Source: Pseudomonadota bacterium (lineage in GTDB: Bacteria; Pseudomonadota; Gammaproteobacteria; Burkholderiales; Burkholderiaceae_C). Taken from it: a DNA stretch of 32,703 nucleotides. The notes below the pieces were generated by a model. It made no database searches. It worked only from the letters and a program-made list of their open reading frames with translations, and was not told the origin of the DNA. A program made the translations under genes and the position numbers. The number at the start of each line of letters is the position of its first letter. Position 1 is the stretch's first letter. Location of the stretch: the NCBI GenBank assembly GCA_021792835.1, contig JAJYTY010000019.1, positions 1 to 32,703 on the forward strand. Reading direction: 5' to 3'. This document shows positions 13,832 to 30,723 of this stretch, piece by piece.

Positions 13832-14344
13832 TCAGCCGGCGACCCGGTCTTCCTCGTCCTTCGCCAGATTGCGGACCATGCTCAGCACGGCACGTCGCGT
13901 GACCTCGACTTCACTGGTCGACAAGCCCTGCAACGCGATCGCGTTGACCTCCTCGGCCAACGGCACGAGTCGCTTCTCGAGCCGACGCCCGAGCGGCGTC
14001 AGGTAGACATAGATGTTCTTGCGGTTGTCGGGCTTGCGCTCCAGGCGCACGTAGCCGAGGCCCTCCATGGCGCGCAGCGCCACGACGGTCGTCGGCTCCA
14101 TGACGCCTGCTTCCATGCTGAGTTCGCGCTTGGTCAGCCCGTCCTGCTGCCAGAGAATGCGCAGGAAGGTCCAATGTCCCAGTTGCACATCGTGCTTCGC
14201 CAGGCGCCATTGCAACGAGCGCAGGAAACCCCGCGTAGCGTCCTTCACCAGGTGCGCCATGCGGTCCTCGGGAACCGCCTCCATCCAGTGGCGCAAAACG
14301 CGGTGGGAGATTTCCTGATCCCGCTTGGGTTCGATCTTCGCCAA
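13832..14344 (-). CDS. MarR-family transcriptional regulator, candidate repressor of the phthalate-type locus
   Basis: A 170-residue MarR protein. The helices RGFLRSLQWRLAKHDVQLGHWTFLRIL are followed by the winged helix-turn-helix: GLTKRELSMEAGVMEPTTVVALRAMEGLGYVRLERKPDNRKNIYVYLTPLGRRL (split here for description only by its DNR wing). The C-terminal helices contribute to the dimer. I chose TTG 14344 because GAGGGG lies just ahead of it; ATG 14284 is the alternative. It is the only intact regulator inside the catabolic region. Palindromes typical of MarR targets lie ahead of four cluster promoters, with a weaker one directly ahead of this gene. The ligand is presumably the aromatic acid or its CoA/ring-cleavage product. 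Confidence 0.85.
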   Translation of the reverse strand: MAKIEPKRDQEISHRVLRHWMEAVPEDRMAHLVKDATRGFLRSLQWRLAKHDVQLGHWTFLRILWQQDGLTKRELSMEAGVMEPTTVVALRAMEGLGYVRLERKPDNRKNIYVYLTPLGRRLEKRLVPLAEEVNAIALQGLSTSEVEVTRRAVLSMVRNLAKDEEDRVAG

Positions 14345-14359
14345 TGTCCCCTCGCTTTC

Positions 14360-14371
14360 TTGGTCGCCTAA
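14360..14371 (-). promoter_or_regulatory. Weak TTAG-N4-CTAA operator ahead of the MarR gene
   Basis: Read on the gene's strand, TTAGGCGACCAA differs by one base from the TTAG-N4-CTAA palindrome found at four other cluster promoters. It ends 15 bp upstream of the TTG start, a position fitting autorepression. Confidence 0.35.
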
Positions 14372-14388
14372 CGAAAAGGGGATTGTCG

Positions 14389-14418
14389 CAGGTCGAAAGC
14401 GAACAGGTCGAAAGCGAG
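14389..14418. repeat. Two tandem copies of a 15-bp unit upstream of the MarR gene
   Basis: CAGGTCGAAAGCGAA is followed directly by CAGGTCGAAAGCGAG, and a decayed third copy (CATGTCGAGG) follows. The array lies in the short gap between the dehydrogenase stop and the MarR start, where regulator or polymerase binding would be expected. Confidence 0.75.
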
Positions 14419-14462
14419 CATGTCGAGGCGTCGGCACCGCGAGCGGGGCCGTGCGGGCGGCC

Positions 14463-15632
14463 TCAGCGCAGGGTGATCTCCTCCATGCTGCCCGCCGATT
14501 GCAGTATCGCAAGGCACACGATCAAGGTGTCGCGCGCCCATTTCCCGTCGTGGATCGGCGCACGCTCGCCGCGTACGGCCGCCTCAAGTTCGTCGATCAC
14601 TTCAAATCGGGGGGACGGCCCCAATGGCAGGTCGATGCTCGACATCTTCGCATCGCCGTAGACCAGGACTCTGTCGGGCAACGGCCTCAAGTCGGCGTGC
14701 TCGCAGCAGACGATGATCGGGCCGAAGTGTTGATGCGCCTGCGCCGGAGTCCTCGCCGCTGCCTGGTAACGAGCGCCGCCGTATGTGCTGTCGGCCTTCA
14801 GGCTCGCCTCGGCCTCCATGGAGCCGATCTGCTGCAAGCGCCGCCTGGCACTGCCATAGGAATCGGGCGCCTTGGCCTGCCCCATCTCGCCGATTCCCTC
14901 GCACCATTCGTCGCTGTCGAAATGGCCGTAACCGCTGTAGGAGAGGTTGGCGAAGGCACCGGACTCGAACCAGAGCAAGGCACCGTAGGCCCCTTCGGTC
15001 GGGCGCTCCGGGTCCCAGCGGCCGAGCACGGAGCGCACCCGACTCACGCCCGATCCAGCCAGCAACCGAACCACGTCGACCTGATGGGCCGCCTGGCTGA
15101 ACACCACGCCGCCCCCATCCTCGGTACGCAACTCCTCGGGTCGACGCGGCCTGTACAGGAAGTCGGTGTAATTCAAGGCCTGGATCATGCGCACATCGCC
15201 GTAGAGCCCGGACTCGATCAGCTTGCGGGTCTGCAGGTAGGGCGTATCGAAACTGTGGCAATGACCAACGACGAGCGCGACGCCGGCTGCCTGGCAGGCA
15301 CGGATCATGGCGTCGCATTCCTCGCGCGACAGTGCCATCGGCTTCTCGACCAGCACATGCTTGCCGGCCGCCGCCGCCAGCTCGACGTGCTCGGCGTGAA
15401 ACTGGTGGGGACTGGCCACATACACCACGTCCACCTCCGGATCACGCACCATTTCGGCGACCTCGGCGTAGACCGGAGCGCCGAAATCCGCCTTGAATCG
15501 AGCACGAGCCGCCTCGCGCGGGTCGCATGCCGCCACCAGGCGCACACGCTGCTCGGCCAGGAAGGTGGGCAGCATCAGGGTGAACGCCCGCCCCAGGCCA
15601 ATCACCCCAAGACGCAGAGCGGACCCTCTCAT
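14463..15632 (-). CDS. ophB: Gfo/Idh/MocA oxidoreductase, probable cis-dihydrodiol dehydrogenase (OphB/Pht4-like)
   Basis: NAD(P)-dependent dehydrogenase of 389 residues. The Rossmann motif [10 protein letters not shown] begins near residue 8, and the family motif [14 protein letters not shown] supplies the catalytic lysine. The second domain contains [21 protein letters not shown] with the usual histidine. Phthalate 4,5-cis-dihydrodiol dehydrogenase belongs to this family, and the gene sits in one operon with an oxygenase, reductase and decarboxylase of the same pathway. It would therefore oxidise the cis-dihydrodiol to the catechol-type dihydroxyphthalate. Its ATG overlaps the reductase stop (ATGA), so it is translationally coupled. 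The family is certain; the exact substrate is inferred from context. Confidence 0.82.
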
Positions 15633-16597
15633 AGATCGATCACCAGCAGATCACTGCGAGCTCGTGACACGCAGGTCATGATTTGCGTGTCGGTCTCCTC
15701 GGGAAGAAGAACCATGTCTCGATGGTCGGCAACTCCTTCCAACAGGCGTGTGCGGCACGTCCCGCAAGTCCCGCTCTCGCACGACGAAGCGGCCTGGATG
15801 CCATTTCGATGCAGTACCTGAAGAATCGTCTGCCCCACCGGCACGTCGAACTCCTGGCCGGTCGAGGCCAGCCGAACCCGGAAGGGCCGATCGTCGGGGC
15901 GTGCCTGCCCTCCCTCGACGAAGCTCTCGAAGTGCACCTGTCGGCTCGACCAATGCCCAGCCATGTCCTTGACCGCGGACATCAGCCGCTGCGATCCACA
16001 GCAATAGATGTGCTGTCCCGGCTTGGGCTGCTCCAGCAGCGGCCAGAGATCGAAGCTGCGGCGCGGATCTCCCTCGGTGTGGTGAACGGTCACCCGGCTG
16101 CGCCACTCCCTCGTCTGCAATTCGTCGAGAAAGGCCGTTGCCTCATGGTGGCGCGAAAGGTAGACGAGCTTCCATGTAGCGGGAGGCATGTCGCCGAAGC
16201 TTCGGATCATCGACAGGATGGGCGTGATCCCGATCCCGCCGGCGATGAAGAGATAGCTCTTGGCTCCGGGATCCAGCGCGAACGCGTTGTCCGGCATGGA
16301 GACGTCGATGAGGTCTCCGGACCGCAGATCGTCGCACATGCTGCGTGAGCCGCCGCGGCCGTCTTCTTCGCGCTTGACCGCGATGCAATAGCGCGTGTCG
16401 TCGCCGGGATCGCTGCAAATGGAATACTTGCGCAGCAGGCCGTTCGGAGCCCGCACGCGGATGTGCGATCCCGCGGTGAAGGCCGGCAATTTCACACCGT
16501 CCGTTGGCGCAAATGCAAAGCCCTTGACACCGCGCGCCAGATCGCGAACCTCCACGACCTCGAGGCGCAACGGAAGTTCCACGTGTTCAGCGTCCAT
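15629..16597 (-). CDS. ophA1: Phthalate-dioxygenase-reductase-type flavin/2Fe-2S reductase (OphA1-like)
   Basis: A 322-residue electron-transfer protein that would pass electrons from NADH through FMN to a plant-type 2Fe-2S centre and on to the Rieske oxygenases. The N-terminal flavin domain contains [11 protein letters not shown] and the pyridine-nucleotide domain contains [17 protein letters not shown]. The C-terminal ferredoxin domain has [16 protein letters not shown] plus a distal Cys in IMTCVSRA, the four cluster ligands. This domain order is diagnostic of the PDR/VanB family. ATG 16597 follows GAGGAG and overlaps the preceding nadC-type gene by 11 bp. It is the only reductase in the locus, so it probably serves both oxygenases. 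Confidence 0.88.
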
Positions 16598-17522
16598 CGC
16601 GCGACTCCTCGACCTGCAGGCGCATCGACAAGTCCACGGCTTGCACATCCTTCGTCAGCTTGCCGATCGAGATGCGATCGACGCCCGTCGCGGCAATGCT
16701 GCGGATCGTGGGAAGGTCGACGCCCCCCGAAACCTCCAGTTCGGCACGCCCCGCGTTGATATCGCAGGCTTGGGCCATGGCCGCCAGGTCGAAGTCGTCG
16801 AGCAGGATGTGCTCGGCGCCGGCACCCAGTGCCTGGCGCAATTCATCGACATCTTCAACTTCGATCTGCAGCGGCACGCCGGCCGCAAGCGCCCGCGCAG
16901 CCTGCAAGGCCTGCGCGACGCCACCGGCCGCGGCGATGTGGTTCTCCTTGATCAGCATGGCATCCCACAAGCCCATGCGGTGGTTCATGCCTCCTCCGAC
17001 GCGCACCGCGTACTTCTGCGCCTGGCGCAACCCGGGGAGGGTCTTGCGGGTGTCCAGGATCCTGCAGCCGCGAGGATTCGGCGAAATCCCCCGGATTTCG
17101 TCGACGTAGCGCCGAGTCGTCGTTGCAACCGATGACAGCATCTGAAGGAAGTTCAGGGCCGAACGCTCGGCGGACAGCAGGGATCGCGCATTACCACGAA
17201 GGCGACAGACCTGCTCCCCGGCAACAGTAAGGTCGCCCTCGGCGATCAACCACTCGATCTCGACCGCTGGGTCGCAGTGGCGAAGGCAACCTTCAAACCA
17301 GGCGCAACCTGCCAGCACGGCGGACTGCTTCGCGACAACCGCGCCCGTCACGCGGCGGTCTTGCGGTACCAGCCGCGCCGTCCAATCCACCGGTCCCAGG
17401 TCCTCGAGCAGAGCGTCACGCACATTGCGCGCCCGCGCCTGCTCAAGCGTTTCGTGAGATGCATGCATAGGTTCTTGCGCCGGATCGACGGCAGGACTCG
17501 ATGGGGCCTTTCGACCGCTCAA
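16587..17522 (-). CDS. ophE: Quinolinate phosphoribosyltransferase isozyme (NadC/OphE-like)
   Basis: Decarboxylating enzyme that makes nicotinate mononucleotide from quinolinate and PRPP. Visible motifs are ALLEDLGPVDWTA at the N-terminus, SALNFLQMLSSVATTTRRYV, RILDTRKTLPGLRQAQKYAVRVGGG (substrate-binding Arg/Lys/His-type loop), NHRMGLWDAMLIKENH and EVSGGV. The protein is 311 residues from TTG 17522, which overlaps the decarboxylase stop (TTGA); ATG 17468 would give 293. It is embedded in a phthalate-type operon. The analogous ophE of Burkholderia cepacia DBO1 is known to offset inhibition of NAD synthesis by phthalate, a quinolinate analogue. That role is inferred here from position. A direct role in pyridine-dicarboxylate breakdown is the alternative. 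Confidence 0.85.
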   Translation of the reverse strand: MSGRKAPSSPAVDPAQEPMHASHETLEQARARNVRDALLEDLGPVDWTARLVPQDRRVTGAVVAKQSAVLAGCAWFEGCLRHCDPAVEIEWLIAEGDLTVAGEQVCRLRGNARSLLSAERSALNFLQMLSSVATTTRRYVDEIRGISPNPRGCRILDTRKTLPGLRQAQKYAVRVGGGMNHRMGLWDAMLIKENHIAAAGGVAQALQAARALAAGVPLQIEVEDVDELRQALGAGAEHILLDDFDLAAMAQACDINAGRAELEVSGGVDLPTIRSIAATGVDRISIGKLTKDVQAVDLSMRLQVEESRDGR

Positions 17523-18544
17523 ATGCTGTAGGACTCATAGGTCGCCGGATGGAACAGCTGGTCGACCCGCATGGGAGCTGCCGAGAGCCCCTGCGCATGG
17601 TGCGCGGCCAGGAAGCCCTCCAGGGTCTGCCTGTTCGAGTCGACACCATAGGACCAGAAGTCCTGCCCCATGAGGTCCCTGGCAGCCTTCAACTGCTCCT
17701 CCACGAAGGGCAACGTGACCTTGGTCGCCGAAGTGTCCGAAAGCATCTGCAGGGCCAGGGTCTTGGACTGCGTGAAGGCCTTGACCAGCGCCGCCGGCAG
17801 CCAGGGATGGGATCGAGCGAGCTCCTGGCGCAAACCCAGCACATGCATGATCGGAAAGATCTTCGTGCGCTGGTAATAGGCCTTGGCCTCGGCCGTCGGG
17901 TCGTCGAACAGCCAGCCGACGTCCGGATTGGCCATCGCGGCCGGCGCGGGTGTGCGTGGGGCGATGAAGCCGTCGATGTCGCCACGGTCGAGCATCGCCG
18001 AGATCGTCTCGCCAACGGGCGCCTGTTCGATCCGGATGCCGGGCGGCAGCTGCAGTCTGATCTTCTCGGGGCGCCCCGGTGTCTCGATGCCGCCGCGCAC
18101 CCAGACCACGTCCTCGGCCTGAATCCCGAATTCACTCTGCAGCAGCGCTCGTGCCCAGACGATGGCGGTGAGCTGATACTCGGGAACGCCGATTCGTCGC
18201 CCCTTGAGATCCTGCGGCCGCGTGATCCGGTCCTTGCGGACGTAGATCGACGTATGCCGAAAGGCCCTGGAGAGAAAGACCGGCAGCGCGATGTAGGGGC
18301 TCTCCCCACGCGAGTGCTTGACGAGATAACTCGAAAAGGACAGTTCGCAGACATCGAAGTCCTGCGAACGCATGGCCCGGAAGAACATCTCCTCGGGGTT
18401 GAGAAGCATGTAGACCGGGTCGACGCCGTCGATGAGAACGCGGCCGTCGTACAAGGCCCTCGTCCTGTCGTAGTCGCCCATGGCGACCGAGAGATGCAGA
18501 TTTGCCATGTGCTTGAACACCTTCAGCTTCGGATCAACGTGCAT
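17519..18544 (-). CDS. ophC: 4,5-dihydroxyphthalate decarboxylase-like protein (OphC/Pht5 family)
   Basis: A 341-residue protein of the periplasmic-binding-like fold family that includes 4,5-dihydroxyphthalate decarboxylase, which yields protocatechuate. The family signature LSVAMGDYDRTRALYDGRV begins near residue 18. It is followed by FFRAMRSQDFDVCELSFSSYLV, IPVFLSRAFRHTSIYV-like ALPVFLSRAFRHTSIYVR, and DLKGRRIGVPEYQLTA. No signal peptide is present, so it is cytoplasmic. The ATG at 18544 overlaps the oxygenase stop by 11 bp; a second ATG at 18508 lies nearer to the usual family start. Its place in the operon directly after the oxygenase supports the decarboxylase role. Substrate regiochemistry is inferred. 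Confidence 0.83.
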   Translation of the reverse strand: MHVDPKLKVFKHMANLHLSVAMGDYDRTRALYDGRVLIDGVDPVYMLLNPEEMFFRAMRSQDFDVCELSFSSYLVKHSRGESPYIALPVFLSRAFRHTSIYVRKDRITRPQDLKGRRIGVPEYQLTAIVWARALLQSEFGIQAEDVVWVRGGIETPGRPEKIRLQLPPGIRIEQAPVGETISAMLDRGDIDGFIAPRTPAPAAMANPDVGWLFDDPTAEAKAYYQRTKIFPIMHVLGLRQELARSHPWLPAALVKAFTQSKTLALQMLSDTSATKVTLPFVEEQLKAARDLMGQDFWSYGVDSNRQTLEGFLAAHHAQGLSAAPMRVDQLFHPATYESYSI

Positions 18545-19865
18545 TCACTTGATAGGAGCCCTCCGCCTCTGCGAGGCGGGGCGCCGATTGGTCCACATCC
18601 CAGATGGGGCGCGCTGCGAACTCGCGCCAGTCCTGCTCCTTGGGAATCACGCACTGGAAGGAACAGACGGCGGCCGGCGGCGCGGAGGGACCGGAGCCGA
18701 TGGCCGTGCTTGCGCTCTCGAATTCCCCCAGCGCGTCGAGCATGCGTTGCCGGAAGGCGACGACCGCCATGTCGCTGGCACCGAGTCGATCGCGGCTTCG
18801 ATCGGCGATGCTGCCCATCGTCACCCACATCGCGATGTCCTGGTTGGGGAAGCCCTTGATGCCCGTGAAATTCCCGGCGCGCATGGCCTGGCGGTCCTGC
18901 CAGAACCTGTTTTCGTGGTTGCGGTAGGGGCGATAGCGCTCGTCGAGGTCGATTCCGACGGTGTTGCCGAGGAATTTGCGCCAGGTCTGCGTCTCCGGCG
19001 TCGTGTCGGGATGACCCCACGCAATGAAGTAAAACGCGGTGTTGGTGTCATCCATCGGGATGTTCACGTTGGCGACGTTGTACAAGTTGTTCGGCGGAAC
19101 CAGGACCGTGTAGGGAGCGGCGAACACGGTGCAACGGGCATAGACATGCGTGGCCGCGTCCTTGATCGGTCGGCGCAACGCGGCATAACGGAACCCGTAC
19201 GGGGTGCGCTCGACCTGCATGCGCGGCGCCTTGTCCGTCGATGGGCGCAACCACAGGTTCGATGTCGCTTCTGCGCCACCGACTCGCGCCGGCACCATGT
19301 CCGAGCTATGCAGGCTCGAGCTGTGCGCGCTGTCGATGGCCCCCTCCAGCACCTGCGCCCAATTGCAGGGCAGAAGCGCCTTGACAATCGAGACCCGGGC
19401 ATCGGAGGTCGGAGCCCACAGAGGTGGCCGGAACTCCGGCACCTGATCGGCTTCGCCGAAATAGGCCCAGATCATCCCGCCCCACTCCTTGACCGGATAG
19501 GCCTTGTGCTTGACCTTCTCGCACAAGCCGCTTTGCTCCGGCTCGGACGGCATTTCCATGACGTTGCCATCGACGTCCATCTTCCAGCCGTGGTACAGGC
19601 AGCGCAGCCCGCCTTCTTCATTGCGCCCATAGACGAGCGACACGCGGCGATGCGGGCAGCTTTCCTCCAGAACGCCAACGCGTCCTTCGCTGTCGCGAAA
19701 CACTACGAGGTCCTCCCCCAGCACCCGCGCCTTCACCGGATCACCATCGGGCTCGGCCACCTCCTCGCTCAGACAAACGGGCGTCCAGTGCTTGCGCATC
19801 AGCTGCCCCATGGGTGCGTCACCCTCGACGCGGCAGAGCAGTTCGTTTTGTTCGCGGGTCAACAT
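18534..19865 (-). CDS. ophA2: Rieske non-heme iron oxygenase subunit, phthalate 4,5-dioxygenase type (copy 1)
   Basis: A 443-residue oxygenase component. The Rieske cluster ligands are CPH in ESCPHRR (near residue 70) and CLYH in GLRCLYHGW. The mononuclear iron site is supplied by DSAHSSSLHSSD and a downstream Asp in NQDIAMW. The MLTREQNELLCRVEGDAPMG opening and the PVKEWGGMIWAYFG segment are typical of the phthalate-dioxygenase group, which has no beta subunit; none is encoded here. ATG 19865 follows AAGGAGG. It is the first gene of a five-gene overlapping operon and is preceded by the CTTAG-N4-CTAAG operator. About four residues in five match the second copy at 27211-28530. Confidence 0.9.
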   Translation of the reverse strand: MLTREQNELLCRVEGDAPMGQLMRKHWTPVCLSEEVAEPDGDPVKARVLGEDLVVFRDSEGRVGVLEESCPHRRVSLVYGRNEEGGLRCLYHGWKMDVDGNVMEMPSEPEQSGLCEKVKHKAYPVKEWGGMIWAYFGEADQVPEFRPPLWAPTSDARVSIVKALLPCNWAQVLEGAIDSAHSSSLHSSDMVPARVGGAEATSNLWLRPSTDKAPRMQVERTPYGFRYAALRRPIKDAATHVYARCTVFAAPYTVLVPPNNLYNVANVNIPMDDTNTAFYFIAWGHPDTTPETQTWRKFLGNTVGIDLDERYRPYRNHENRFWQDRQAMRAGNFTGIKGFPNQDIAMWVTMGSIADRSRDRLGASDMAVVAFRQRMLDALGEFESASTAIGSGPSAPPAAVCSFQCVIPKEQDWREFAARPIWDVDQSAPRLAEAEGSYQVNAR

Positions 19866-19914: not shown

Positions 19915-19928
19915 CTTAGGCATCTAAG
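19915..19928. promoter_or_regulatory. TTAG-N4-CTAA operator ahead of Rieske copy 1
   Basis: CTTAG-GCAT-CTAAG is a perfect 5-bp-arm palindrome about 50 bp upstream of the oxygenase ATG. On the gene's strand a TAGGAT hexamer abuts it upstream, so a bound repressor would cover the start of transcription. It lies in the gap to the divergent hemerythrin gene and could affect both. Confidence 0.65.
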
Positions 19929-19951: not shown

Positions 19952-20533
19952 ATGCGCAACACGCCTAGTACAAACCCCGATGACCCGCCTTTCCACTGGA
20001 GCGATGCGCTCCTGCTGGGACATGGCGCCATGGATGTGACACACCGCGAGTTCGTGGACCTTGTGGCGGCCTTGAGTCGCGCCGAGGATGGGCGACTTGC
20101 CGGCCTGCTGGACGCCTTCATCGCGCACACGGAAGAACATTTCTCCGCCGAGGACCGCTGGATGGTTCAGAGCGCCTTCCCGGCGACGGACTGTCATCGC
20201 GACGAGCATGCGGCCGTGCTTGCCACGGTGCACACCGCGCGGCGCAAGCTTGCGCAAGGCGACGCCACCCTTTGCCGACGTGTCGTATCGGAATTGATCC
20301 GCTGGTTCCCCGCCCACGTCGAACAACTGGATTCGGCTCTGGCCCAGTGGCTGTGCAAACGCCAGCATGCCGCAGTGCCGCTCGTACTGCGGCGCGGCGT
20401 GACGCGCAGCGCCTTCGTCGCCCCCCGGAGCCATGCTCCATATCGTCCCGGATCGGCCGAGGCTGCTTCGCCTGGTCCGGGGATCACCTTACCGAACCCC
20501 GGCGACTGGCACGGCGCCGGCGAGCCAGAATGA
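19952..20533 (+). CDS. Bacteriohemerythrin-like oxygen-binding protein
   Basis: A 193-residue protein with one hemerythrin four-helix domain over residues 14-140. All di-iron ligand positions can be read: His in VTHREF, His and Glu in EEHFSAEDRWM, two His in CHRDEHAAV, and His plus Asp in PAHVEQLDSA. The last 50 residues are proline- and glycine-rich and not part of the domain. No signal peptide or membrane segment is present, so it should be cytosolic. It diverges from the Rieske operon across 86 bp containing the shared operator. Its stop overlaps the start of an orphan LysR domain (ATGA). A role in supplying or sensing oxygen for the oxygenase is plausible but is inference. Confidence 0.85.
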   Translation: MRNTPSTNPDDPPFHWSDALLLGHGAMDVTHREFVDLVAALSRAEDGRLAGLLDAFIAHTEEHFSAEDRWMVQSAFPATDCHRDEHAAVLATVHTARRKLAQGDATLCRRVVSELIRWFPAHVEQLDSALAQWLCKRQHAAVPLVLRRGVTRSAFVAPRSHAPYRPGSAEAASPGPGITLPNPGDWHGAGEPE

Positions 20534-20939: not shown

Positions 20940-22124
20940 TCAGAAGAGGTGGCGGATCCCGACCGCAATCCCGGTGGAACTCTGCCCCGGCACCCCTCTG
21001 AAGACGTCCGTCGCCGATCCGATGGCCAGGGCCATGTGCGCATCGTTGCTCATGCGGGCGTACGACGCGTACAGGTCCGTGGCCTTCGACAGGCTGTAGG
21101 AGTAGCCCAGCGCCATCTGATGCGAAGACCCGTAGACCGTGCTCGGCTGCAGCACCGAATTCTGATCGGCCTTGGTATCCGCGTACGAGACCATGATCTG
21201 CCCCCGCCCCACGGGAACGGTCGCGCCGAGCATCCAGTACGTGTTGTTGCCTGCGCTCGTTCCGCTCGAGGTTCCGTAGGCATAGTCGCCACTGGCTCGC
21301 TCATACAGCGCGTGCAGCGCGGCGACCCCGAAGTTGTAGCTCCCGAAGACCTGCGCAACCTGGACCTTGCCGTTGTTGACCCCTGCGGCATCGGTGGCCC
21401 ACGTCGAGTTGGTCATCTGCAGGTAGGTCACGCCGGCCGTCAGAGGCCCAGCCGCATACTTGCCCTGCAGCGACCACGCCCGCGGCACCTGGGACCCGCT
21501 GGCCGTGCTTGTCGGGACCGTGCCCGTCAACGGTGCGAACGAGTACGCCACCGCGCCGGTGAAACCGCCGAGGTGGGGGGTCGTGTACTGCACCTGTTGA
21601 GACGCGCGAAGGAACGCGAAACCGCGCTGGATGCCTGCCAGCGACAGGTTGGTCATTGCACCCGTCGTTCCGTAGGAAAAGGGATCGGTCGCTCCCTCGG
21701 CATCGGCGATCAGGGTGTACATCCGGCCGCCTTGCAGGGTCCCGAAGTTCCCGCTGAGCCCGACCCACGCCTGACGCTGCATGAAGCCTCCGCCCGTGCA
21801 GAAACCATTGGCCGGACCGGCTCCGCTGTACGTCGTAGCCTGGTCCTGATTCGTGCCTGCCGCGCAAAACCCCGTCTCCACGTCGAACAACGTGGACAGG
21901 CCTCCGCCCAGATCCTCCCGCCCCTTCAACCCGATGCGAGAGCCGGATTGAACGCCCGAGCTCAGCCCAGTCGACGATGTCGTGCCCCCGGCGCCGTTGT
22001 CAACGCCGGTGAAATGGGTCACCCCCATGTCGATGATGCCGTAGAGCTGCACGCTCGATCCCTGGGCATGCGCCGTCGCGGCGAAGGCCGCGCCTACGGC
22101 GATGGCGAGCAATTGTCGTTTCAT
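20940..22124 (-). CDS. Burkholderiales-type outer-membrane porin
   Basis: A 394-residue general porin. The signal peptide MKRQLLAIAVGAAFAATAHAQ is cleaved after AHA, and the mature start SSVQLYGIIDMGV is the hallmark of this family. SRIGLKGREDLGGGLSTLF, RQAWVGLSGNFGTLQGGR and the final GIRHLF with terminal Phe are the other signatures of the 16-stranded trimeric porins. It follows the ABC importer genes on the same strand by 67 bp with a good ribosome-binding site (AAGGAG). It may therefore be co-expressed as the outer-membrane entry for the aromatic acid. Substrate specificity cannot be read from sequence. Confidence 0.93.
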   Translation of the reverse strand: MKRQLLAIAVGAAFAATAHAQGSSVQLYGIIDMGVTHFTGVDNGAGGTTSSTGLSSGVQSGSRIGLKGREDLGGGLSTLFDVETGFCAAGTNQDQATTYSGAGPANGFCTGGGFMQRQAWVGLSGNFGTLQGGRMYTLIADAEGATDPFSYGTTGAMTNLSLAGIQRGFAFLRASQQVQYTTPHLGGFTGAVAYSFAPLTGTVPTSTASGSQVPRAWSLQGKYAAGPLTAGVTYLQMTNSTWATDAAGVNNGKVQVAQVFGSYNFGVAALHALYERASGDYAYGTSSGTSAGNNTYWMLGATVPVGRGQIMVSYADTKADQNSVLQPSTVYGSSHQMALGYSYSLSKATDLYASYARMSNDAHMALAIGSATDVFRGVPGQSSTGIAVGIRHLF

Positions 22125-22992: not shown

Positions 22993-23765
22993 GCGGGAAC
23001 CTCCTCACCCAGGTAGGCACGCAGGACCTGAGGATGCCTTTGAATCTCCTGGGCGGTCCCGCAAGCCACGACAGCGCCAGCCTCCAGCGCCACGACGGCG
23101 TCGGCGATTCCCATGACCAATGGCATGTTGTGCTCCACGAGAAGCACCGTCACACCGGTGTCCCGGATTGCGAGCAGGAGCTCGGCCAACTCCGTCGTCT
23201 CGCTATCGTTCAGCCCGGCTGCCGGCTCGTCCAGGAGCAGCAGGCGCGGCTTGGCCATCAATGCACGCAAGACATCGAGCAGCTTCTGGGCTCCCATCGG
23301 AAGCGCTTGCGCCTCTTGATTTCGCAGATGCCCCAGGCCGACGAGTTCGAGAAGCTGCGTTGCGCATTTGCGGAGCTCACGCTCTTCCGACCTCACTGCG
23401 GGCGACCAGGCCAGCTGCGCGAGCAATCCCTGCTGAAGCCGGCGGTGCCGCCCCACCATGAGGTTGTCCAGCACGGTCATCCCCGGGAAGACTCGTGCGG
23501 CCTGGAAGGTTCGGATCAAGCCCATCTGCGCAATGCGCACGGGCGCCAGGCCGTCGATGCGCTGTCCGTCATAGATGACCCGCCCGCTGTCGGGTCGGAT
23601 CAAGCTCGTGATCAGGTTGAACAGCGTCGTCTTGCCAGCTCCGTTCGGGCCGATCAAGGCGGTGATCTCCCCGCGACGAACTCCGAACGAGACGTCGACG
23701 GTCGCGCGCAACCCCCCGAAGGCGAGATTGAGCTCGTGCACGTCCAGCAGATTGGTGTCCTTCAT
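22989..23765 (-). CDS. livG: ABC transporter ATPase, LivG type
   Basis: A 258-residue ATP-binding subunit. Walker A GPNGAGKTT, the LivG-specific IRTFQAARVFPGMTVLDNLMV segment, Walker B LLLLDEPAAGLN and the switch histidine in LLVEHNM are intact. The ABC signature is unusual, LPMGAQKLLDVLRAL where most homologues have LSxGQQR, though the central Gly is kept. I placed the start at ATG 23765, which overlaps the permease stop (ATGA). A longer open frame upstream is only the permease in another frame. Confidence 0.9.
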   Translation of the reverse strand: MKDTNLLDVHELNLAFGGLRATVDVSFGVRRGEITALIGPNGAGKTTLFNLITSLIRPDSGRVIYDGQRIDGLAPVRIAQMGLIRTFQAARVFPGMTVLDNLMVGRHRRLQQGLLAQLAWSPAVRSEERELRKCATQLLELVGLGHLRNQEAQALPMGAQKLLDVLRALMAKPRLLLLDEPAAGLNDSETTELAELLLAIRDTGVTVLLVEHNMPLVMGIADAVVALEAGAVVACGTAQEIQRHPQVLRAYLGEEVPA

Positions 23766-25666
23766 GACCGCGCCACGAGGTTCGTCATACCGGAAGCTGG
23801 GCGACGTCGGCACGGTCGCCAGGTCACGAGATGCAGCACGGAGCCGAAGATCCCTTCGGGCAGGTAAAGAAAGCACAGCATGAGCAAGGCACCATCGGCA
23901 AAGGTCTTCCACTGCGCCAACGGCTGGAACAATGCGGGCAACAGCGTCAGCAGCGTCGCCCCGAAGATCGGTCCGATGAGGGTCCCCTCGCCGCCGATGA
24001 CCATCATCGCGACCAGTTCGATCGAACGCGAGGTCCCGACCATGTCGGGAGACAAAAAATGGAAGTCGAAGGCGTACAGGCTTCCCGCCAGGGACGCCAG
24101 CCCCGCGCTGATCGAGAAGGCGATCAACTTGCACCGGACCACATCGATCCCCAGCGCCGCCGCGGCGGTCTGGTCGGTTCGGATGGCCTTCAAGGCGCGC
24201 CCGAACCCCGAGCGGGCCAAGCCACCGAGCAGGATCGTCACGAGCACGCCCAGCGAGGCGACCAGGCCATACATGGCAAGCGGGCTGCCGAAGTCCCACG
24301 ATCCGATGCTGAAGGACGGGATGCCGACCATGCCCGAAGGTCCGCCCGTGATGTCGTTGAGTCCGACCGCTGCGGAGTGAATCAGGAGCCCGAAGGCCAA
24401 CGTGGCCAGCGCCAGGTACAGTCCACGCAGGCGCAAGGTGACCACGGAAAGAATCAAGGCGGCGACAACCGAAAGGACGATTCCCGCGAGCACGCCGACG
24501 AGCGGTGACCAGCCGTGCTGAATGACGAGATACCCGGCTGCGTAGCCGCCGATCGCCATGAAGCCGGCCTGACCCAGGCTGACCTGTCCCGCATAGCCCA
24601 TGAGCAGGTCAAGCCCGGCCAATGCGATATAGAGGATGCCTGCGATGATCAGGCTGCTCATCACGAGCCCCTGGCCGACCACGAACGGCAGCAGGACCAG
24701 GACAACGAGGCCGACCATTGCGCCAGCCACGAGACCACGCGGCGAGAGATGGACCGCCCGCCTCCAGATGCGGTGCTCTTCCGCCGAATCCTGCCTCTTC
24801 GACGGCCCGGAACGGATCAACCCCATGGGACGCCAAACCAGGACGGCCAGCAAGAGCGCCAGGGCAATCGCATTGCTGTAGAGAGACGACAGGTACGCCG
24901 TGGCCAACTGCTCGACGACGCCCAGCAAGAGGCCACCGACGATCGCGCCGGGAAGCGAGCCCAGGCCCCCGATCGCCACGGCAATGAAGCCCGAGATCGT
25001 GAAGAGCCGGCCGGTATCGAACTGCAACGACGTCGTCGGCGCGATCACGATGCCGGCGACGGCTCCGATCAGGGCGGCAATGACAAAGCTCATGCCCTGC
25101 ACGCGCCGCACGCTGATGCCCATCAGCAGCGCCGCCGTGGGATTCTGGGCGCAGGCGCGCAACGCCTTGCCAAACGACGTGCGGTACAAGGCCCAACCCA
25201 GGATGCCGACGATGACGAATGCGCTGCCGATCACCCAGACGCCCTGCACCGGCATCGAAACACCACCGAGGATCAGCGGCGAGTGGCTGGAGAACGCAGG
25301 CGCTGCGTAGGGCTGGCTACCCCAGATCACGAGCGCCAGACCCTCGAAAATCGTCAACATTCCCAGCGTGAGCATGAGCATGTTGGCATGGGACAGGCGC
25401 TGCAGGCCCGGCACGAACGCGACGACGGCGAACAATGCGCTGATGACCGCGGTGGCGATCAGGGCGGCCAGCGCCGCCGCCGAAAGCTGCCAGCCGTGAT
25501 CGACCTGCAGGCTATACGTCATCAACGCGGCCAGCACGCAAAATGCCCCCTGTGCCAGGCTCACGATATTCGTCACCCTGTAGATCAGGGAAAAGCCCAG
25601 CCCGATCAAGGCGTAGATCACGCCGACCTGGATCCCGCCGAGGGTGATCTGCAAGAACTCCGTCAT
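23762..25666 (-). CDS. Fused LivH-LivM-type ABC permease
   Basis: A 634-residue membrane protein in which both permease subunits of a HAAT importer are joined. Residues 1-290 are LivH-like, with ITLGGIQVGVIYALIGLGFSLIYR at the start, TSFGKALRACAQNPTAALLMGI as the ATPase-coupling helix, and AVAIGGLGSLPGAIVGG. A hydrophilic linker of about 25 residues follows (SGPSKRQDSAEEHRIWRR). Residues 315-610 are LivM-like, with MGYAGQVSLGQAGFMAIGGY, SGFGRALKAIRTDQTAAAALGI and MVIGGEGTLIGPIFGA. Usually these are two genes; the frame is continuous here. It lies 15 bp downstream of the binding-protein gene and overlaps livG. Confidence 0.9.
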   Translation of the reverse strand: MTEFLQITLGGIQVGVIYALIGLGFSLIYRVTNIVSLAQGAFCVLAALMTYSLQVDHGWQLSAAALAALIATAVISALFAVVAFVPGLQRLSHANMLMLTLGMLTIFEGLALVIWGSQPYAAPAFSSHSPLILGGVSMPVQGVWVIGSAFVIVGILGWALYRTSFGKALRACAQNPTAALLMGISVRRVQGMSFVIAALIGAVAGIVIAPTTSLQFDTGRLFTISGFIAVAIGGLGSLPGAIVGGLLLGVVEQLATAYLSSLYSNAIALALLLAVLVWRPMGLIRSGPSKRQDSAEEHRIWRRAVHLSPRGLVAGAMVGLVVLVLLPFVVGQGLVMSSLIIAGILYIALAGLDLLMGYAGQVSLGQAGFMAIGGYAAGYLVIQHGWSPLVGVLAGIVLSVVAALILSVVTLRLRGLYLALATLAFGLLIHSAAVGLNDITGGPSGMVGIPSFSIGSWDFGSPLAMYGLVASLGVLVTILLGGLARSGFGRALKAIRTDQTAAAALGIDVVRCKLIAFSISAGLASLAGSLYAFDFHFLSPDMVGTSRSIELVAMMVIGGEGTLIGPIFGATLLTLLPALFQPLAQWKTFADGALLMLCFLYLPEGIFGSVLHLVTWRPCRRRPASGMTNLVARS

Positions 25667-25681
25667 CGCGTCGACCTACCC

Positions 25682-26863
25682 TCAGGACAACGGCTTGCCG
25701 CCGGAGGCGCTGACGGGCTTCCAGGTTCCCGCTGCCGCATCCCATTCGGTGATGTAGACGTTCTTGTCTCCCAGGCCGCGCTGCGGATAGGCCTTGAAGT
25801 CATAGCGTCCGTTGACACCGTAGATTTCCTTCTGCGAGGCGAGATACGCGCGCACCTGCTCGGCCGTCGCGTTCGGCCCGAGTTTGCGCAGGGCCTTGAT
25901 CACCAGCAGGGCGGGATCCCATGCATACGTTGCGGCGGCATCGGGCTTCATGCCGGCCTGCTGGTACGAGCCGAACAGACGTGCCTTCGCCACGACCTGG
26001 CCCTGCGGCGCGTCGGATGGCGCGCCCGGCAGCCATTCCGGCGACGGGATGAGCAGCTGCTTGGGCAGGAAGCTCGCGTACTGCTTCATCTGCGCATAGG
26101 TCATGTTCCCGTCGGTGGTCGCCACAGGGATGTTCAGACCGGCGTCGGCCAGGCCCTTGAACACGGTGCCGATGGCCGAGCCGGTCGACCAGGCGACCAG
26201 CGCCTGCGGCTTGCTGGCCTTGATGCGCTCGATCTGCGCGCTGGCGCTGACATCGGTCGGGTTGAACGAAGCCTTGGCGACGATGTCGATGCGCTTGAAT
26301 TCAGGCAACTGCAGCAGCGCCGACAGGTTGTGCCGCCCATCCTCGCCCGAAGCGTCCGTGCTGTTAATCAGGGCTACGCGCGTCCAGCCCTTGGCGACGA
26401 AGTAGCGAAGCTGCGCGGCGAGCAGGTCACGTGTCGCGATGCTGGAGGAGAAGATGTAGCTGCCCGCTCGGGGATGGATCCCCGGCGAGAAGCAGTACAT
26501 GACCGGGCCATGGCTGGCCAAGGGCGCCATCGCGTTGCACAGCGCCACCACCGCTGAACCCAGCACGACCGCCGGGTGCGAAACGATCAACTGCGACGCG
26601 AGTTGCACGGCGGTCTGCGGACTGGATTGGTCGTCGTGGAATACGAAGTGGACCGAGCGCCCACCGATTCCGTTCGCCCCCTGCAACTGCGTCTGCATGC
26701 GCTCCAAGGCAACTTGCTCGGGCTTGCCGAGGAAGGCGACCGGCCCCGTCAAGGGCAGGACCACATTGATGTCGTACGGTTGCTGGCCGGCCTGCGCGGC
26801 CGATGCGATCCCCAGAGCGCCCAGCGCCAGTGCAGCGCCCCCGACCCATGACTTGATACCCAT
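25682..26863 (-). CDS. ABC transporter substrate-binding protein, HAAT family
   Basis: A 393-residue periplasmic binding protein, with signal peptide MGIKSWVGGAALALGALGIASAAQA cleaved before GQQPYDINV. The mature protein shows the type I periplasmic-binding fold: INVVLPLTGPVAFLGKPEQVALERM, HFVFHDDQSSPQTAVQLASQLI, VVLGSAVVALCNAMAPLA and WTRVALINSTDASGED. Such proteins in aromatic clusters commonly bind aromatic carboxylates. The ATG follows an extended AGGAGGAGG ribosome-binding site, fitting high expression. It heads the transporter unit and is preceded by the CTTAGTCGACTAAG operator. Phthalate or a relative as ligand is inference from the neighbours. Confidence 0.9.
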   Translation of the reverse strand: MGIKSWVGGAALALGALGIASAAQAGQQPYDINVVLPLTGPVAFLGKPEQVALERMQTQLQGANGIGGRSVHFVFHDDQSSPQTAVQLASQLIVSHPAVVLGSAVVALCNAMAPLASHGPVMYCFSPGIHPRAGSYIFSSSIATRDLLAAQLRYFVAKGWTRVALINSTDASGEDGRHNLSALLQLPEFKRIDIVAKASFNPTDVSASAQIERIKASKPQALVAWSTGSAIGTVFKGLADAGLNIPVATTDGNMTYAQMKQYASFLPKQLLIPSPEWLPGAPSDAPQGQVVAKARLFGSYQQAGMKPDAAATYAWDPALLVIKALRKLGPNATAEQVRAYLASQKEIYGVNGRYDFKAYPQRGLGDKNVYITEWDAAAGTWKPVSASGGKPLS

Positions 26864-26968: not shown

Positions 26969-26982
26969 CTTAGTCGACTAAG
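26969..26982. promoter_or_regulatory. TTAG-N4-CTAA operator ahead of the ABC importer
   Basis: CTTAGTCGACTAAG is a perfect 14-bp palindrome about 105 bp upstream of the binding-protein ATG. On the gene's strand TTGCCG and TAGGAT, 16 bp apart, lie immediately upstream and resemble a sigma-70 promoter whose start region the operator would cover. The rest of the 347-bp gap between this gene and the oxygenase stop at 27211 holds only the hairpin annotated at 27145. Confidence 0.65.
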
Positions 26983-27183: not shown

Positions 27184-27210
27184 TTCGTTGACGCGAAACC
27201 GACGCGTGGG

Positions 27211-28530
27211 TCAGGCAGTCTGCGTGGCACGCGCCGGCCGTGCCTGCGGGTCGGCGGCACTTCCCCACACGTAGCGAGCGTCGTGGGCGCGCCAGTCACG
27301 CTCCCTGGGCAGAATGGCCTGGAACGAACAGACGCCGGCCGGTACCGCTTCCGGCCCGACGCCGATGGGCGCGCCGCCGGCCTCGAAGGCCTGCAATGCG
27401 TCCAGCATGCGCTGGCGGAACTCGACGATCGCCAGATCGCTGGCACCCAGCCGATCGCGGGAGCGATCCGCGATCGGCCCCATGGTCACCCACATCGCGG
27501 AATCCTGATTGGGAATGCCGTGGATCCCCGTGAAGTTGCCGGCCTTCATCGCCTGCCGGTCCTGCAGGTAGCGGTTATCGTGGTTGCGCACCGGGCGATA
27601 GCGCTCGTCGAGATCGATGCCGCGCACGTTGCCGAGGAACTCGCGCCACGTCGCCGTCTCCGGCGTGGTCGCCGGGTCTCCCCAGGCGATGAAGTAGAAC
27701 GCCGTGGTCGTGTCGTCGACGGGAATGTTGACGTTGGCGACGTTATAGAGGTTGTTGGGGGGAATCAGGACCGTGTACGGAGCCACGAAGACGGTGCAAC
27801 GGCTGTAGACATGCGACGCCGCGTGGTTGATGGGACGGCGCAGGGCCGCGTAGCGAAACCCGTATGACGTGCGCTCGACCTGCATGCGCGGCGCCTTGTC
27901 GGTCGACGGACGCAACCAGAGCCTGTCGGTCGCCTCGGCGCCATCGACCCGCGCCGGAACCATGTCGGAGCTATGAAGGTTCGAACTATGTGCACTGTCG
28001 ATGGCGCCTTCGAGGACCTGGGCCCAGTTGCAGGGGATGATCGCCTTGACGATGGACACACGTACGTCGATCGACGGAGCCCACCGCGGCGGCACGAATT
28101 CCGGAGCCTGTTCGGCGGCACCGAAATAGGCCCAGACCATGCCGCCCCACTCCTTGACCGGATAGGCCCTGTGCTTGACTTTCTCGCACAGGCCGCTTTC
28201 AGGCGGCTCGGAGGGCATGTCCACCGTGTTGCCGTCTACGTCGAACTTCCAGCCGTGGTACAGGCAACGAAGCCCATCCTCTTCATTGCGCCCATAGACC
28301 AACGATGCCCGGCGATGCGGACACGCTTCGTCGAGCACGCCCACGCGCCCCTTGCTGTCGCGAAACACCACCAGTTGTTCGCCGAAGACGCGCGCCTGCA
28401 CAGGCGTTCCGTCGGGTTCTCCCACCTCCTCGACCAGGCACACGGGCGTCCAGTGCCTGCGCATGAGTCGGCCCATCGGCGCGTCGCCCTCGACGCGGCA
28501 CAGCATCTCGTTTTGTTCATGGGTCAGCAT
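27211..28530 (-). CDS. Rieske non-heme iron oxygenase subunit, phthalate-dioxygenase type (copy 2)
   Basis: A 439-residue paralogue of the oxygenase at 18534-19865, about 80 percent identical by eye. Rieske ligands are CPH in EACPHRR and CLYH in GLRCLYHGW. The iron site uses DSAHSSNLHSSD and the Asp of NQDSAMW. ATG 28530 follows AGGAGGG. Differences concentrate in the middle and C-terminal part of the catalytic domain (RINHAASHVYSRC, RGIDLDERYRPVRNHDNRY), so substrate or regiochemistry may differ. It is a single-gene unit with its own operator upstream and a hairpin downstream, and no second reductase accompanies it. It probably shares the reductase at 15629-16597. Confidence 0.9.
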   Translation of the reverse strand: MLTHEQNEMLCRVEGDAPMGRLMRRHWTPVCLVEEVGEPDGTPVQARVFGEQLVVFRDSKGRVGVLDEACPHRRASLVYGRNEEDGLRCLYHGWKFDVDGNTVDMPSEPPESGLCEKVKHRAYPVKEWGGMVWAYFGAAEQAPEFVPPRWAPSIDVRVSIVKAIIPCNWAQVLEGAIDSAHSSNLHSSDMVPARVDGAEATDRLWLRPSTDKAPRMQVERTSYGFRYAALRRPINHAASHVYSRCTVFVAPYTVLIPPNNLYNVANVNIPVDDTTTAFYFIAWGDPATTPETATWREFLGNVRGIDLDERYRPVRNHDNRYLQDRQAMKAGNFTGIHGIPNQDSAMWVTMGPIADRSRDRLGASDLAIVEFRQRMLDALQAFEAGGAPIGVGPEAVPAGVCSFQAILPRERDWRAHDARYVWGSAADPQARPARATQTA

Positions 28531-28582
28531 CCCTATCCCTCCTACGGTCAAAGCCACTAAGGCAAAATATTCACGATTCCAC

Positions 28583-28602
28583 ATACTTAGGTCTCTAAGT
28601 AT
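28583..28602. promoter_or_regulatory. TTAG-N4-CTAA operator between Rieske copy 2 and the hydrolase
   Basis: ATACTTAG-GTCT-CTAAGTAT has perfect 8-bp arms, the longest of the set. It lies about 53 bp upstream of the oxygenase ATG and inside the divergent intergenic region, so it may control both directions. TAGGAT again abuts it on the oxygenase strand. Confidence 0.7.
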
Positions 28603-28711
28603 CCTAAGCGTGCAGGGCGCGCGGCGAGGCCCGTGGAATCCCTTATGGGGCCCAGGGGCGAGAACCGGCTGCGCGCGCTGGCCGCGCGACGCCAGAAGAG
28701 GAGGAGGAGTC

Positions 28712-29878
28712 ATGAACTTGCCCGTCGAACGCCGCTGGGTTCACGTGATGGTCAGCGAACCGACGCCGCCATACAGCGAGTCCTACGCATTCGCGGCAAC
28801 GCGCGAAGGAGCGCAACTCGAGGGAGTGCTGCTGAGCCCCACGGTGGGCGCAAGCGACACGCTCTTGCTGATGATGCATCCCGCGGCCACCCTGCAGTTG
28901 CTGCCGCTGCCCGAAGCGCTGGCACAGGCCGGGTATCCGGTGCTTTGCATGGGAAGCCGTTATGCCAGGAACGACACCTCGCTGATTTACGAAAAGGTGG
29001 CACTCGACCTTGGCGCGTGTGTCAGGCACGCGAAGGAATCCCTGGGATTTCGCACGGTGGTGTTGCTCGGTTGGTCGGGTGGCGGCTCTCTGGCGCTGTT
29101 CTATCAAGCCCAGGCCGCAAAGCCATGGATCACGCACACACCTGCCGGCGATCCCGTGGATCTGCTCGCTGCCGACCTCCCCGAGGTCGACGGGATCGTG
29201 CTCGACGCATCCCACCAATCTCGCGCCGGCATGCTGCGCGACTGGATCGACCCGTCGGTGCTCGACGAGGCGAACCCCGAGCGTCGCGATCCGCGGCTCG
29301 ACCTGTACAGTCCGGACCTTCCGGTGCGCCCACCCTACCCAGCGGACTGGCTACGCGAATACCGGACGGCGCAGCACCAGCGCATCCAGCGCATCACCTC
29401 GCGTGTGGAGGAATGGCTGCATGCCTTGCGCAAACGCGGAGGAGCCGAGGTGGAGCGAGGCTTTGTCACACACCGCACGCTGGCCGATCCGCGATTTCTC
29501 GACACCAGCATCGACCCCAACGACCGCCGTCCTGGACACTGCTATCTGGGCCTTCCCGAGACCGCCAACACCGGGCCCGCCGGGCTGGCCCGCTTTTCCA
29601 CGCTCAGGTCCTGGCTGTCGCAATGGTCGATCGAGCACACACGCGCCAACGGCACGCGGTGTGCCGCCCAGATCACGGTTCCGCTGCTTGCGATCGAGCA
29701 CGGCGGCGACGACGCGGTACCCCAGCCTGAAATGGGAATCCTCTATCGCGCCTGCGCCAGCACCGACAAGCAAATGGTCCTGATACGCCACGCGACCCAT
29801 TTGTTCAGCGGCCAACCTGCTCAGCTGCACGAAGCGGTCGAGCACATCACGGCATGGTGTCGGCGGCACGCATGGTGA
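28712..29878 (+). CDS. Alpha/beta hydrolase of unknown substrate
   Basis: A 388-residue cytoplasmic alpha/beta-hydrolase-fold enzyme. The nucleophile elbow is LLGWSGGGSLALF (Ser near residue 116). The acid is probably in IEHGGDDAVPQPE and the catalytic His in IRHATHLFSGQ near the C-terminus. A long insertion between the core strands (about residues 150-320) forms a cap. It is larger than the usual ring-cleavage (meta-cleavage product) hydrolases, so an ester or amide substrate, such as a phthalate monoester feeding the pathway, is one option. ATG 28712 follows GGAGGAG. It diverges from Rieske copy 2 across the shared operator. Confidence 0.8.
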   Translation: MNLPVERRWVHVMVSEPTPPYSESYAFAATREGAQLEGVLLSPTVGASDTLLLMMHPAATLQLLPLPEALAQAGYPVLCMGSRYARNDTSLIYEKVALDLGACVRHAKESLGFRTVVLLGWSGGGSLALFYQAQAAKPWITHTPAGDPVDLLAADLPEVDGIVLDASHQSRAGMLRDWIDPSVLDEANPERRDPRLDLYSPDLPVRPPYPADWLREYRTAQHQRIQRITSRVEEWLHALRKRGGAEVERGFVTHRTLADPRFLDTSIDPNDRRPGHCYLGLPETANTGPAGLARFSTLRSWLSQWSIEHTRANGTRCAAQITVPLLAIEHGGDDAVPQPEMGILYRACASTDKQMVLIRHATHLFSGQPAQLHEAVEHITAWCRRHAW

Positions 29879-29895
29879 CCTCCAGTCCATCTACT

Positions 29896-29915
29896 TCGAG
29901 GCGCGCGCGCCTCGA
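29896..29915. terminator. 20-bp palindrome between convergent genes
   Basis: TCGAGGCGCG followed by CGCGCCTCGA is a perfect 20-bp palindrome in the 49-bp gap between the stops of the hydrolase and the class II aldolase. It could act as a bidirectional terminator, although a loop-less hairpin would lose some pairs and there is no T-run. Confidence 0.4.
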
Positions 29916-29927
29916 GCGAACGATGCG

Positions 29928-30662
29928 CTAACGAGCGCTCAGCACTTGCTCTTTCCACAGGTCCCAAGGCCGGGTGATGACGCCCTGCATCATCTCATCG
30001 GCCTTGTCGGCTTCCTCTTCCGTCAGGTAGACCACGTCACCCCCCAGCGCAATGGCCTTCTGTTGCAACGCCGCATTCGACTCGGTGTACATCGCCCGAT
30101 AGACGGCAACACGCAGATCCGCGCCTACAGCGACGAAACCGTGCCCGCGCATCAGCGCCACGGCGTGATCGCCCAGGATGCGTGCCAACTCCACCCCCTG
30201 TTCCCGGTTGCGCACCAGCAAGTCCGTCGAGCCAAAGCACTTGCAGATATCGAACACGGGGGCTCCGCCCCTTAGAAAACCAGCCATGTGGTAGATGGGC
30301 CGCAAGCGCGTCGAGGATGAGGCAAACGGAATGACGGAAGGCGAATGGCTATGCACGATAGCTTGCACGTCGGGACGCGCGCGATAGATTTCGCCGTGTA
30401 TGTAGCGCTCCAGATACGCCGTGCGCGGGTCGCCCCCGGTCGCATTCGAGTCCTGGTCGAAGACCATCACATCGTCAGGCGTGACGAGCGCCGGCGCCAG
30501 GGAGCGGGACAGCAGGAAGTGGTCCCGCAGCCGCGGATGGCGCATGCTGACATGCCCGAATCCATCGAGCACGCCGTAGTGGGCAAGCACCCTGTTCGCG
30601 ATCACCAGATCTTGCAGGGCGGCTTCCCCATCGGGCCTAACACGAAGGCCGGCGTCGTTCAT
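29928..30662 (-). CDS. Class II aldolase/adducin-family protein, possible dihydroxyphthalate decarboxylase
   Basis: A 244-residue zinc-dependent class II aldolase/adducin fold. Metal ligands are HSH in QAIVHSHSPSV and His in ALMRGHGFVAVG, with a conserved Glu in YIHGEIYRARPD. LAHYGVLDGFGHVSMRHP is the family's N-terminal signature. The family includes sugar-phosphate aldolases but also the 3,4-dihydroxyphthalate decarboxylases of actinobacterial phthalate pathways and related aromatic decarboxylases. Here the neighbours make the decarboxylase role attractive. ATG 30662 follows AGGAGGAG; the frame extends 14 codons upstream without a better start. It has its own TTAG-N4-CTAA operator, so it appears to belong to the same regulon. 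Confidence 0.82.
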   Translation of the reverse strand: MNDAGLRVRPDGEAALQDLVIANRVLAHYGVLDGFGHVSMRHPRLRDHFLLSRSLAPALVTPDDVMVFDQDSNATGGDPRTAYLERYIHGEIYRARPDVQAIVHSHSPSVIPFASSSTRLRPIYHMAGFLRGGAPVFDICKCFGSTDLLVRNREQGVELARILGDHAVALMRGHGFVAVGADLRVAVYRAMYTESNAALQQKAIALGGDVVYLTEEEADKADEMMQGVITRPWDLWKEQVLSAR

Positions 30663-30709
30663 GTCTCCTCCTGTGGCCTGCTCCATGGTCGTGAGCACGA
30701 TCATTTTTT

Positions 30710-30723
30710 GTTAGCGTTCTAAC
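30710..30723. promoter_or_regulatory. TTAG-N4-CTAA operator ahead of the class II aldolase
   Basis: GTTAG-CGTT-CTAAC is a perfect 5-bp-arm palindrome 48 bp upstream of the ATG, the same distance as at the two oxygenase genes. On the gene's strand CATAAT lies just upstream and may be the -10 hexamer. Confidence 0.6.

Follow-up and report, generated by a model that had tools for sequence, protein, structure and literature searches.

A TTAG-N4-CTAA palindrome as the putative operator of a MarR-family regulator in o-phthalate 4,5-dioxygenase loci

When the window analyzed here (the whole 32.7-kb stretch of contig JAJYTY010000019.1) was examined, a marR gene and four copies of the palindrome TTAG-N4-CTAA were observed within a phthalate catabolic locus. 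Judged from sequence comparison, this palindrome is very probably the operator of the MarR protein encoded at 13832-14344, which would repress the phthalate genes until an aromatic acid of the pathway releases it. The four palindromes of the initial annotation were recovered, with exact cores starting at 19916, 26970, 28587 and 30711, as was the one-mismatch copy reported ahead of marR. The genes concerned encode two Rieske oxygenases (oxyA and oxyB), a solute-binding protein (sbp) and a class II aldolase family protein (ald). Distances to start codons are measured from the edge of the core.

13832..14344, minus strand: marR, 170-aa MarR-family regulator with a TTG start (Pfam MarR PF01047, 33.2 bits, cut-off 24.6)
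14360..14371, minus strand: one-mismatch putative operator, TTAGGCGACCAA, 15 bp ahead of the marR TTG start
19916..19927, minus strand: putative operator 1, TTAGATGCCTAA on the oxyA coding strand, 50 bp ahead of the oxyA start
26970..26981, minus strand: putative operator 2, TTAGTCGACTAA, 106 bp ahead of the sbp start
28587..28598, minus strand: putative operator 3, TTAGAGACCTAA, 56 bp ahead of the oxyB start
30711..30722, minus strand: putative operator 4, TTAGAACGCTAA, 48 bp ahead of the ald start

The core of operator 3 lies inside longer arms, ATACTTAG-GTCT-CTAAGTAT, which form a 20-bp palindrome (28583-28602). The oxyA and oxyB promoters are alike, with TAGGATAC ahead of TTAG in both, and the sbp and ald promoters differ in look from these two. 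When one mismatch was allowed, the window contained 7 matches versus 0.85 expected, and none of 100 shuffles reached 7 (largest, 6). Two of the one-mismatch hits (19925 and 28596) were rejected as second operators, since they merely overlap exact sites. They are probably part of the -10 region rather than half-sites because the letters TTAGGATAC of the window correspond to TTATGATAC in Thiomonas delicata.

The assembly to which the window belongs (3,773,918 bases or 3.77 Mb, 323 contigs, 95.27 % complete) was searched for the pattern, with the same letters read backwards as the control. There were five exact occurrences, four of them in the window (control, 14), and 20 places with at most one mismatch, seven of them in the window (control, 283). 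The genome-wide scan proposed in the initial annotation did not refute the observation. The fifth site (G000:C186:6126-6137) was considered as a member of the regulon and rejected. This site is 40 bp ahead of rpoH (401.5 bits to the NCBIfam RpoH model, over the cut-off) and is half of a CIRCE-like inverted repeat, TTAGCACTC-N9-GAGTGCTAA, which from its consensus we take to be the CIRCE element bound by HrcA.

In ten family genomes lacking this marR (E ≤ 1e-15), the number of exact sites ranged from 0 to 7 and summed to 19 over about 47 Mb, so that four sites in 32.7 kb are far above background. A total of 77 exact sites was found in 21 genomes with a MarR homologue (11 genomes of the order and 10 of the 30 genome_contigs loci), where the reversed control occurred 10 to 92 times per genome. 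By hand tally, 29 of the 77 sites were inside the stretches around marR or oxyA, which represent less than 0.5 % of the bases.

MarR homologues were collected from 11 genomes of the order besides the window's own, among 399 searched (12 loci), from 30 loci of genome_contigs and from plasmids (10 of 64 matching records fetched). The resulting comparison set consists of 52 loci outside the window with a total of 941,442 bases. Only three pairs of loci share at least 1 kb at 90 % identity, and by this measure the loci appear mostly distinct, though related. With a spacing of 4, the half-sites formed 66 sites in the 52 loci, versus 0 to 4 at each of the 12 other spacings (0-3 and 5-12). Halves in reverse order were found 0 to 3 times per spacing, and the control letters GATT-N-AATC 2 to 16 times (13 at spacing 4). 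Twenty dinucleotide shuffles of the loci gave a mean of 1.65 sites and a maximum of 4. The half-sites and their spacing are constant, and the 66 sites contain 38 different spacers (strand-collapsed). The spacer is partly constrained, as AGAG occurs ten times and ATAT seven times, and its first base is A in 21 of the 27 sites nearest oxyA. The flanks of these 27 oxyA sites favor C before the core (24) and G after it (19), giving CTTAG-N4-CTAAG.

An exact site was present in all 33 MarR loci that also hold an oxyA homologue and in 5 of the 19 that do not. The 33 oxyA homologues share at least 55 % identity and have at least 200 bp of upstream sequence; L065, with marR on another contig, and L067, cut by a contig end, are counted outside them. 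The exact site was within 250 bp upstream of the oxyA start in 27 of the 33, compared to a mean of 0.05 and at most 2 in 200 shuffles. In three loci (L071, L072 and L079) it precedes a hemerythrin gene that is followed by oxyA, and in L074 a reductase gene that precedes oxyA. Two exact sites precede a divergent reductase in L057. In L076, the reductase is preceded by a one-mismatch site, and an exact site lies between marR and a permease gene. The site, marR and the phthalate oxygenase operon were found together in Beta- and Alphaproteobacteria and in one gammaproteobacterial plasmid. A marR match (E ≤ 1e-15) is present in 12 of the 399 genomes of the order, including all nine in which oxyA was found at E ≤ 1e-120. 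That this MarR is the binder had been offered as inference. It is now well supported, because the fixed half-sites, the 4-base spacing and the differing spacers go with marR and the oxygenase operon across classes; the half-sites also equal those of SlyA, itself a MarR-family protein.

The marR product belongs to the MarR family, with its winged helix-turn-helix domain over the curated Pfam cut-off, and the palindromes that such a regulator would be expected to bind are present and conserved in the predicted target promoters. When 26 homologues were aligned (that of the window plus those of 25 of the 52 loci), P84, T85 and A89 in the recognition helix region were invariant in all. The N-terminal part likewise has invariant W20, D27, R28, H31, R38, H57, W58, R62 and W65, and these charged and aromatic residues possibly form an aromatic-acid pocket. 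The genome contains 18 MarR-domain matches, of which 14, including this marR, are over the Pfam cut-off. The gene was rejected as a SlyA orthologue, as no SlyA model was among its NCBIfam hits and PDB 1lj9 (chain named SlyA) matched only at an E-value of 1.3e-05. HpaR is a MarR repressor of aromatic catabolism, and assignment as an HpaR equivalog was also rejected (TIGR02337, 33.1 bits, cut-off 121.2).

The other genes between marR and operator 4 are as follows.

14463..15632, minus strand: gfo, Gfo/Idh/MocA oxidoreductase, likely phthalate dihydrodiol dehydrogenase (role suggested by Pfam and operon position)
15629..16597, minus strand: red, ferredoxin-NAD reductase (PDR/VanB type, as its relatives are annotated; Pfam), likely the oxygenase reductase
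16587..17522, minus strand: nadC-like quinolinate phosphoribosyltransferase (TIGR00078, 277.8 bits, cut-off 198.4)
17519..18544, minus strand: dec, likely 4,5-dihydroxyphthalate decarboxylase (own Pfam hits weak, periplasmic-binding-protein-like)
18534..19865, minus strand: oxyA, Rieske oxygenase of the phthalate 4,5-dioxygenase type (PDB 7fjl/7v25/7v28, E-value 2.6e-230, 768.5 bits)
19952..20533, plus strand: hem, hemerythrin-domain protein, divergent from operator 1 (Pfam)
20530-20793, plus strand: LysR-type helix-turn-helix gene, 87 residues, DNA-binding domain only (Pfam)
20940..22124, minus strand: porin, end of the predicted uptake operon (Pfam Porin_4)
22192..23765, minus strand: two ABC-transporter ATPases of the livF and livG type (Pfam)
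23762..25666, minus strand: putative fused ABC permease (from position and size, without a Pfam scan)
25682..26863, minus strand: sbp, periplasmic solute-binding protein, first gene of the predicted uptake operon (Pfam Peripla_BP_6)
27211..28530, minus strand: oxyB, second Rieske oxygenase (Pfam), 79 % identical to oxyA
28712..29878, plus strand: weak alpha/beta-hydrolase match, divergent from operator 3 (Pfam hits under the cut-off)
29928..30662, minus strand: ald, class II aldolase family, possible decarboxylase (Pfam)

The earlier description of a phthalate-type locus was right. The oxyA product matches a phthalate dioxygenase structure, and dec is 74 % identical to a gene annotated as 4,5-dihydroxyphthalate decarboxylase in L071 (Polaromonas plasmid pPNAP04). 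Structure 7V25 is a crystal structure of the Comamonas testosteroni KF1 phthalate dioxygenase, whose product is described as phthalate cis-4,5-dihydrodiol (PMC10511449). With genes for a phthalate dioxygenase (PDO)-type oxygenase, a reductase, a dehydrogenase and a decarboxylase, the last three assigned by homology and gene order, the window is predicted to carry an o-phthalate 4,5-dioxygenase (oph/pht) locus. Both oxygenases have a LigXa C-terminal domain. The permease homologue in L033 (68 % identical) is between the sbp and ATPase homologues. The nadC of the phthalate operon is one of two copies in the genome, the other being at C11:24300-25091; the role of an extra quinolinate phosphoribosyltransferase in Burkholderia cepacia DBO1 was reportedly treated by Chang and Zylstra in 1999. 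A hemerythrin-domain gene is found in several oxyA loci and is directly ahead of the oxygenase in three plasmid loci (L071, L072 and L079). The LysR fragment is followed by the porin gene on the opposite strand. Against a model of 3,4-dihydroxyphthalate decarboxylase, ald scored 88 bits (cut-off 200). In two Azohydromonas loci (L040 10544-11233 and L044 10559-11269), the marR homologue adjoins a class II aldolase gene that shares 52 % identity with ald, and thus ald may be an old partner of this MarR.

We propose that a MarR dimer would bind the palindrome immediately 3' of the -10 region, covering the transcription start or lying beside it. As reported initially, TAGGAT lies beside three sites on the coding strand, 2 bases ahead of the core at oxyA and oxyB and 5 bases ahead at sbp; at ald, CATAAT lies 1 base ahead. 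In T. delicata, the place equivalent to the TAGGAT of the window reads TATGAT. A -10-like hexamer (four or more matches to TATAAT that include the T, A and T of places 1, 2 and 6, or five matches in all) preceded the site in 18 of the 27 oxyA promoters, compared to 8.1 in letter shuffles (0 of 1000 reached 18), a count that is indicative only as related sequences are counted separately. Bound MarR would block the oxyA-dec-nadC-red-gfo(-marR) operon and the sbp-permease-ATPase-porin uptake operon, both with predicted limits, and also oxyB and ald. The inducer would be an aromatic acid of the pathway, either o-phthalate or a dihydroxyphthalate; protocatechuate is less likely. MarR with its ligand would leave the DNA, and uptake, ring dioxygenation and decarboxylation would be switched on together. 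With marR at the operon end, its own level would be set via the same operator, and the imperfect copy before marR may add direct autoregulation in this genome. Exact copies precede marR in L076 and L078, and a one-mismatch copy precedes it in L074; among relatives with the gfo-marR arrangement, no exact copy was found directly before marR.

Several observations weigh against this reading. A consensus scan for sigma-70-like promoters over 13700-31000 gave no hits (2.1 expected), and the promoter assignment is one of the weaker parts of the reading, as the resemblance to a -10 element is weak. The marR copy is imperfect, and most relatives in which marR ends the operon lack an exact copy before it. 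By hand tally, 48 of the 77 sites in the 21 MarR-holding genomes are scattered outside the locus; other MarR proteins may use some of these, as half-sites of the SlyA type are general. In principle, it could be oxyA rather than marR that the site accompanies, since the order sample never shows oxyA without marR. L065, which contains the oxyA of genome G137, has only a one-mismatch site. Of the 47 loci whose marR is at least 50 % identical, 11 lack the site, and none of the 11 has oxyA in the fetched stretch. Several of them end at contig edges, but L021 (G119), L044 and L056 do not; these have MarR proteins of 58 %, 65 % and 63 % identity in 19-20 kb without oxyA or an exact site. Genome G119 (marR at C9:22445) contains four exact sites, none near marR, and no oxyA was found at E ≤ 1e-120. 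For siteless L035 (Azohydromonas australica), oxyA-dec-nadC and two sites are on another short contig (L084).

The half-sites are of the general SlyA type and 13 further MarR-domain matches in the genome are over the Pfam cut-off, so another MarR/SlyA-type protein encoded elsewhere could be the main binder, with the local MarR acting at other places or competing. We consider this rather improbable, as the closest paralogues share only 25 % identity, and this over part of the protein, the sites cluster here, and the same site accompanies this marR in loci of Betaproteobacteria, of Alphaproteobacteria and of a plasmid from the Gammaproteobacteria. It is improbable too that MarR binds the sites and activates transcription, or works with an activator, rather than being a simple repressor: 18 of the 27 oxyA sites are just downstream of a -10-like hexamer, in a blocking position. 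Some sites are farther from the gene, however, with the nearest one 159 bp from oxyA in L019 and the sbp site 106 bp away in the window, and some MarR proteins do activate, such as SlyA at hlyE (PMC2156107).

The only other regulator noticed in the phthalate part of the locus is the LysR-type gene that begins at 20530. It was rejected as the binder, and binding by a LysR-type regulator of the locus is regarded as highly improbable, since the gene stops after 87 residues with the DNA-binding domain alone and a 12-base palindrome with a 4-base spacer is not a usual LysR site. The resemblance of the oxyA and oxyB promoters allows those two sites to be one event, and from this the four sites might be taken as relics of copied promoters, or as chance, with no common binder. 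Such an origin is hardly credible: the sbp and ald promoters look different, the spacers differ, the site is conserved across classes, and the spacing and shuffle controls already contradict it. Repression by the local MarR remains the preferred reading.

The closest known operator is that of SlyA, a MarR-family protein of Salmonella and E. coli, with the consensus TTAGCAAGCTAA (PMC5797941). The two share TTAG/CTAA half-sites and a 4-base spacer, and the SlyA-type core TTA-N6-TAA / TTAG-N4-CTAA is found here. However, the spacer varies here with A favored first, the flanks favor C before and G after the core, and this MarR has no SlyA model match in NCBIfam and is encoded among genes for aromatic catabolism. 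Repressors of the MarR family are well known from the breakdown of aromatic compounds, for example PcaV (PMC5487221). As with CouR, PcaV and HpaR, the putative operator is located in promoters of catabolic genes, and by analogy an aromatic compound of the pathway would be expected to release the protein. Unlike CouR, PcaV and HpaR, the pathway here is o-phthalate 4,5-dioxygenation.

In Sphingobium yanoikuyae SHJ, the phthalate cluster has an annotated MarR gene, phtR, beside genes for 4,5-dihydroxyphthalate decarboxylase, dehydrogenase, oxygenase and nadC, but the role of phtR comes from genome annotation and no operator is named in the available text of that report (PMC6051330). MarR hits on Sphingobium plasmids are about 36 % identical to this MarR, and one of them might be phtR. 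IphR of Comamonas sp. E6 is described as the isophthalate repressor (PMC13040137). It is likewise a dedicated repressor of the catabolic operon of a phthalate isomer, but responds to isophthalate and not o-phthalate. IphR belongs to the IclR family. Among the titles and abstract openings of the literature matches listed, which cover few subscription journals, no work that examines the MarR operator of an o-phthalate locus by experiment was found. This is apparently an uncharacterised proteobacterial phthalate regulon with an ordinary mechanism.

o-Phthalate is the core of common plasticisers. A 2026 review lists TphR for terephthalate and IphR, characterised in detail, for isophthalate, and calls o-phthalate gene clusters a large resource for biosensor design (PMC13040137). 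XylS has been engineered to respond to o-phthalate (PMC11683335). The regulator-operator pair conserved with o-phthalate genes is a candidate dedicated sensor, and the operators offer a way to locate further phthalate genes. It is somewhat more likely than not that proteobacterial phthalate 4,5-dioxygenase loci have in this MarR clade a dedicated, so far uncharacterised sensor of o-phthalate, found together with its operator on chromosomes as well as plasmids in three classes, and that in the genome of the window the operator spread from an ancestral oxygenase promoter to the uptake operon, the duplicated oxygenase and the aldolase gene.

In T. delicata, the oxyA and sbp sites are identical letter for letter to those of the window, spacers included. 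The oxyB of T. delicata (L083 13166-13952) matches in three pieces in three frames, with the first 176 residues unmatched. No site was found before this fragmentary oxyB, and no ald homologue was found in the 19.9-kb stretch. Therefore, the oxyB and ald sites are additions or retentions of the window's lineage, and it seems that T. delicata has not kept an operator without a working gene. The matches of the LysR fragment in T. delicata (L083 6524-6785) are in two frames.

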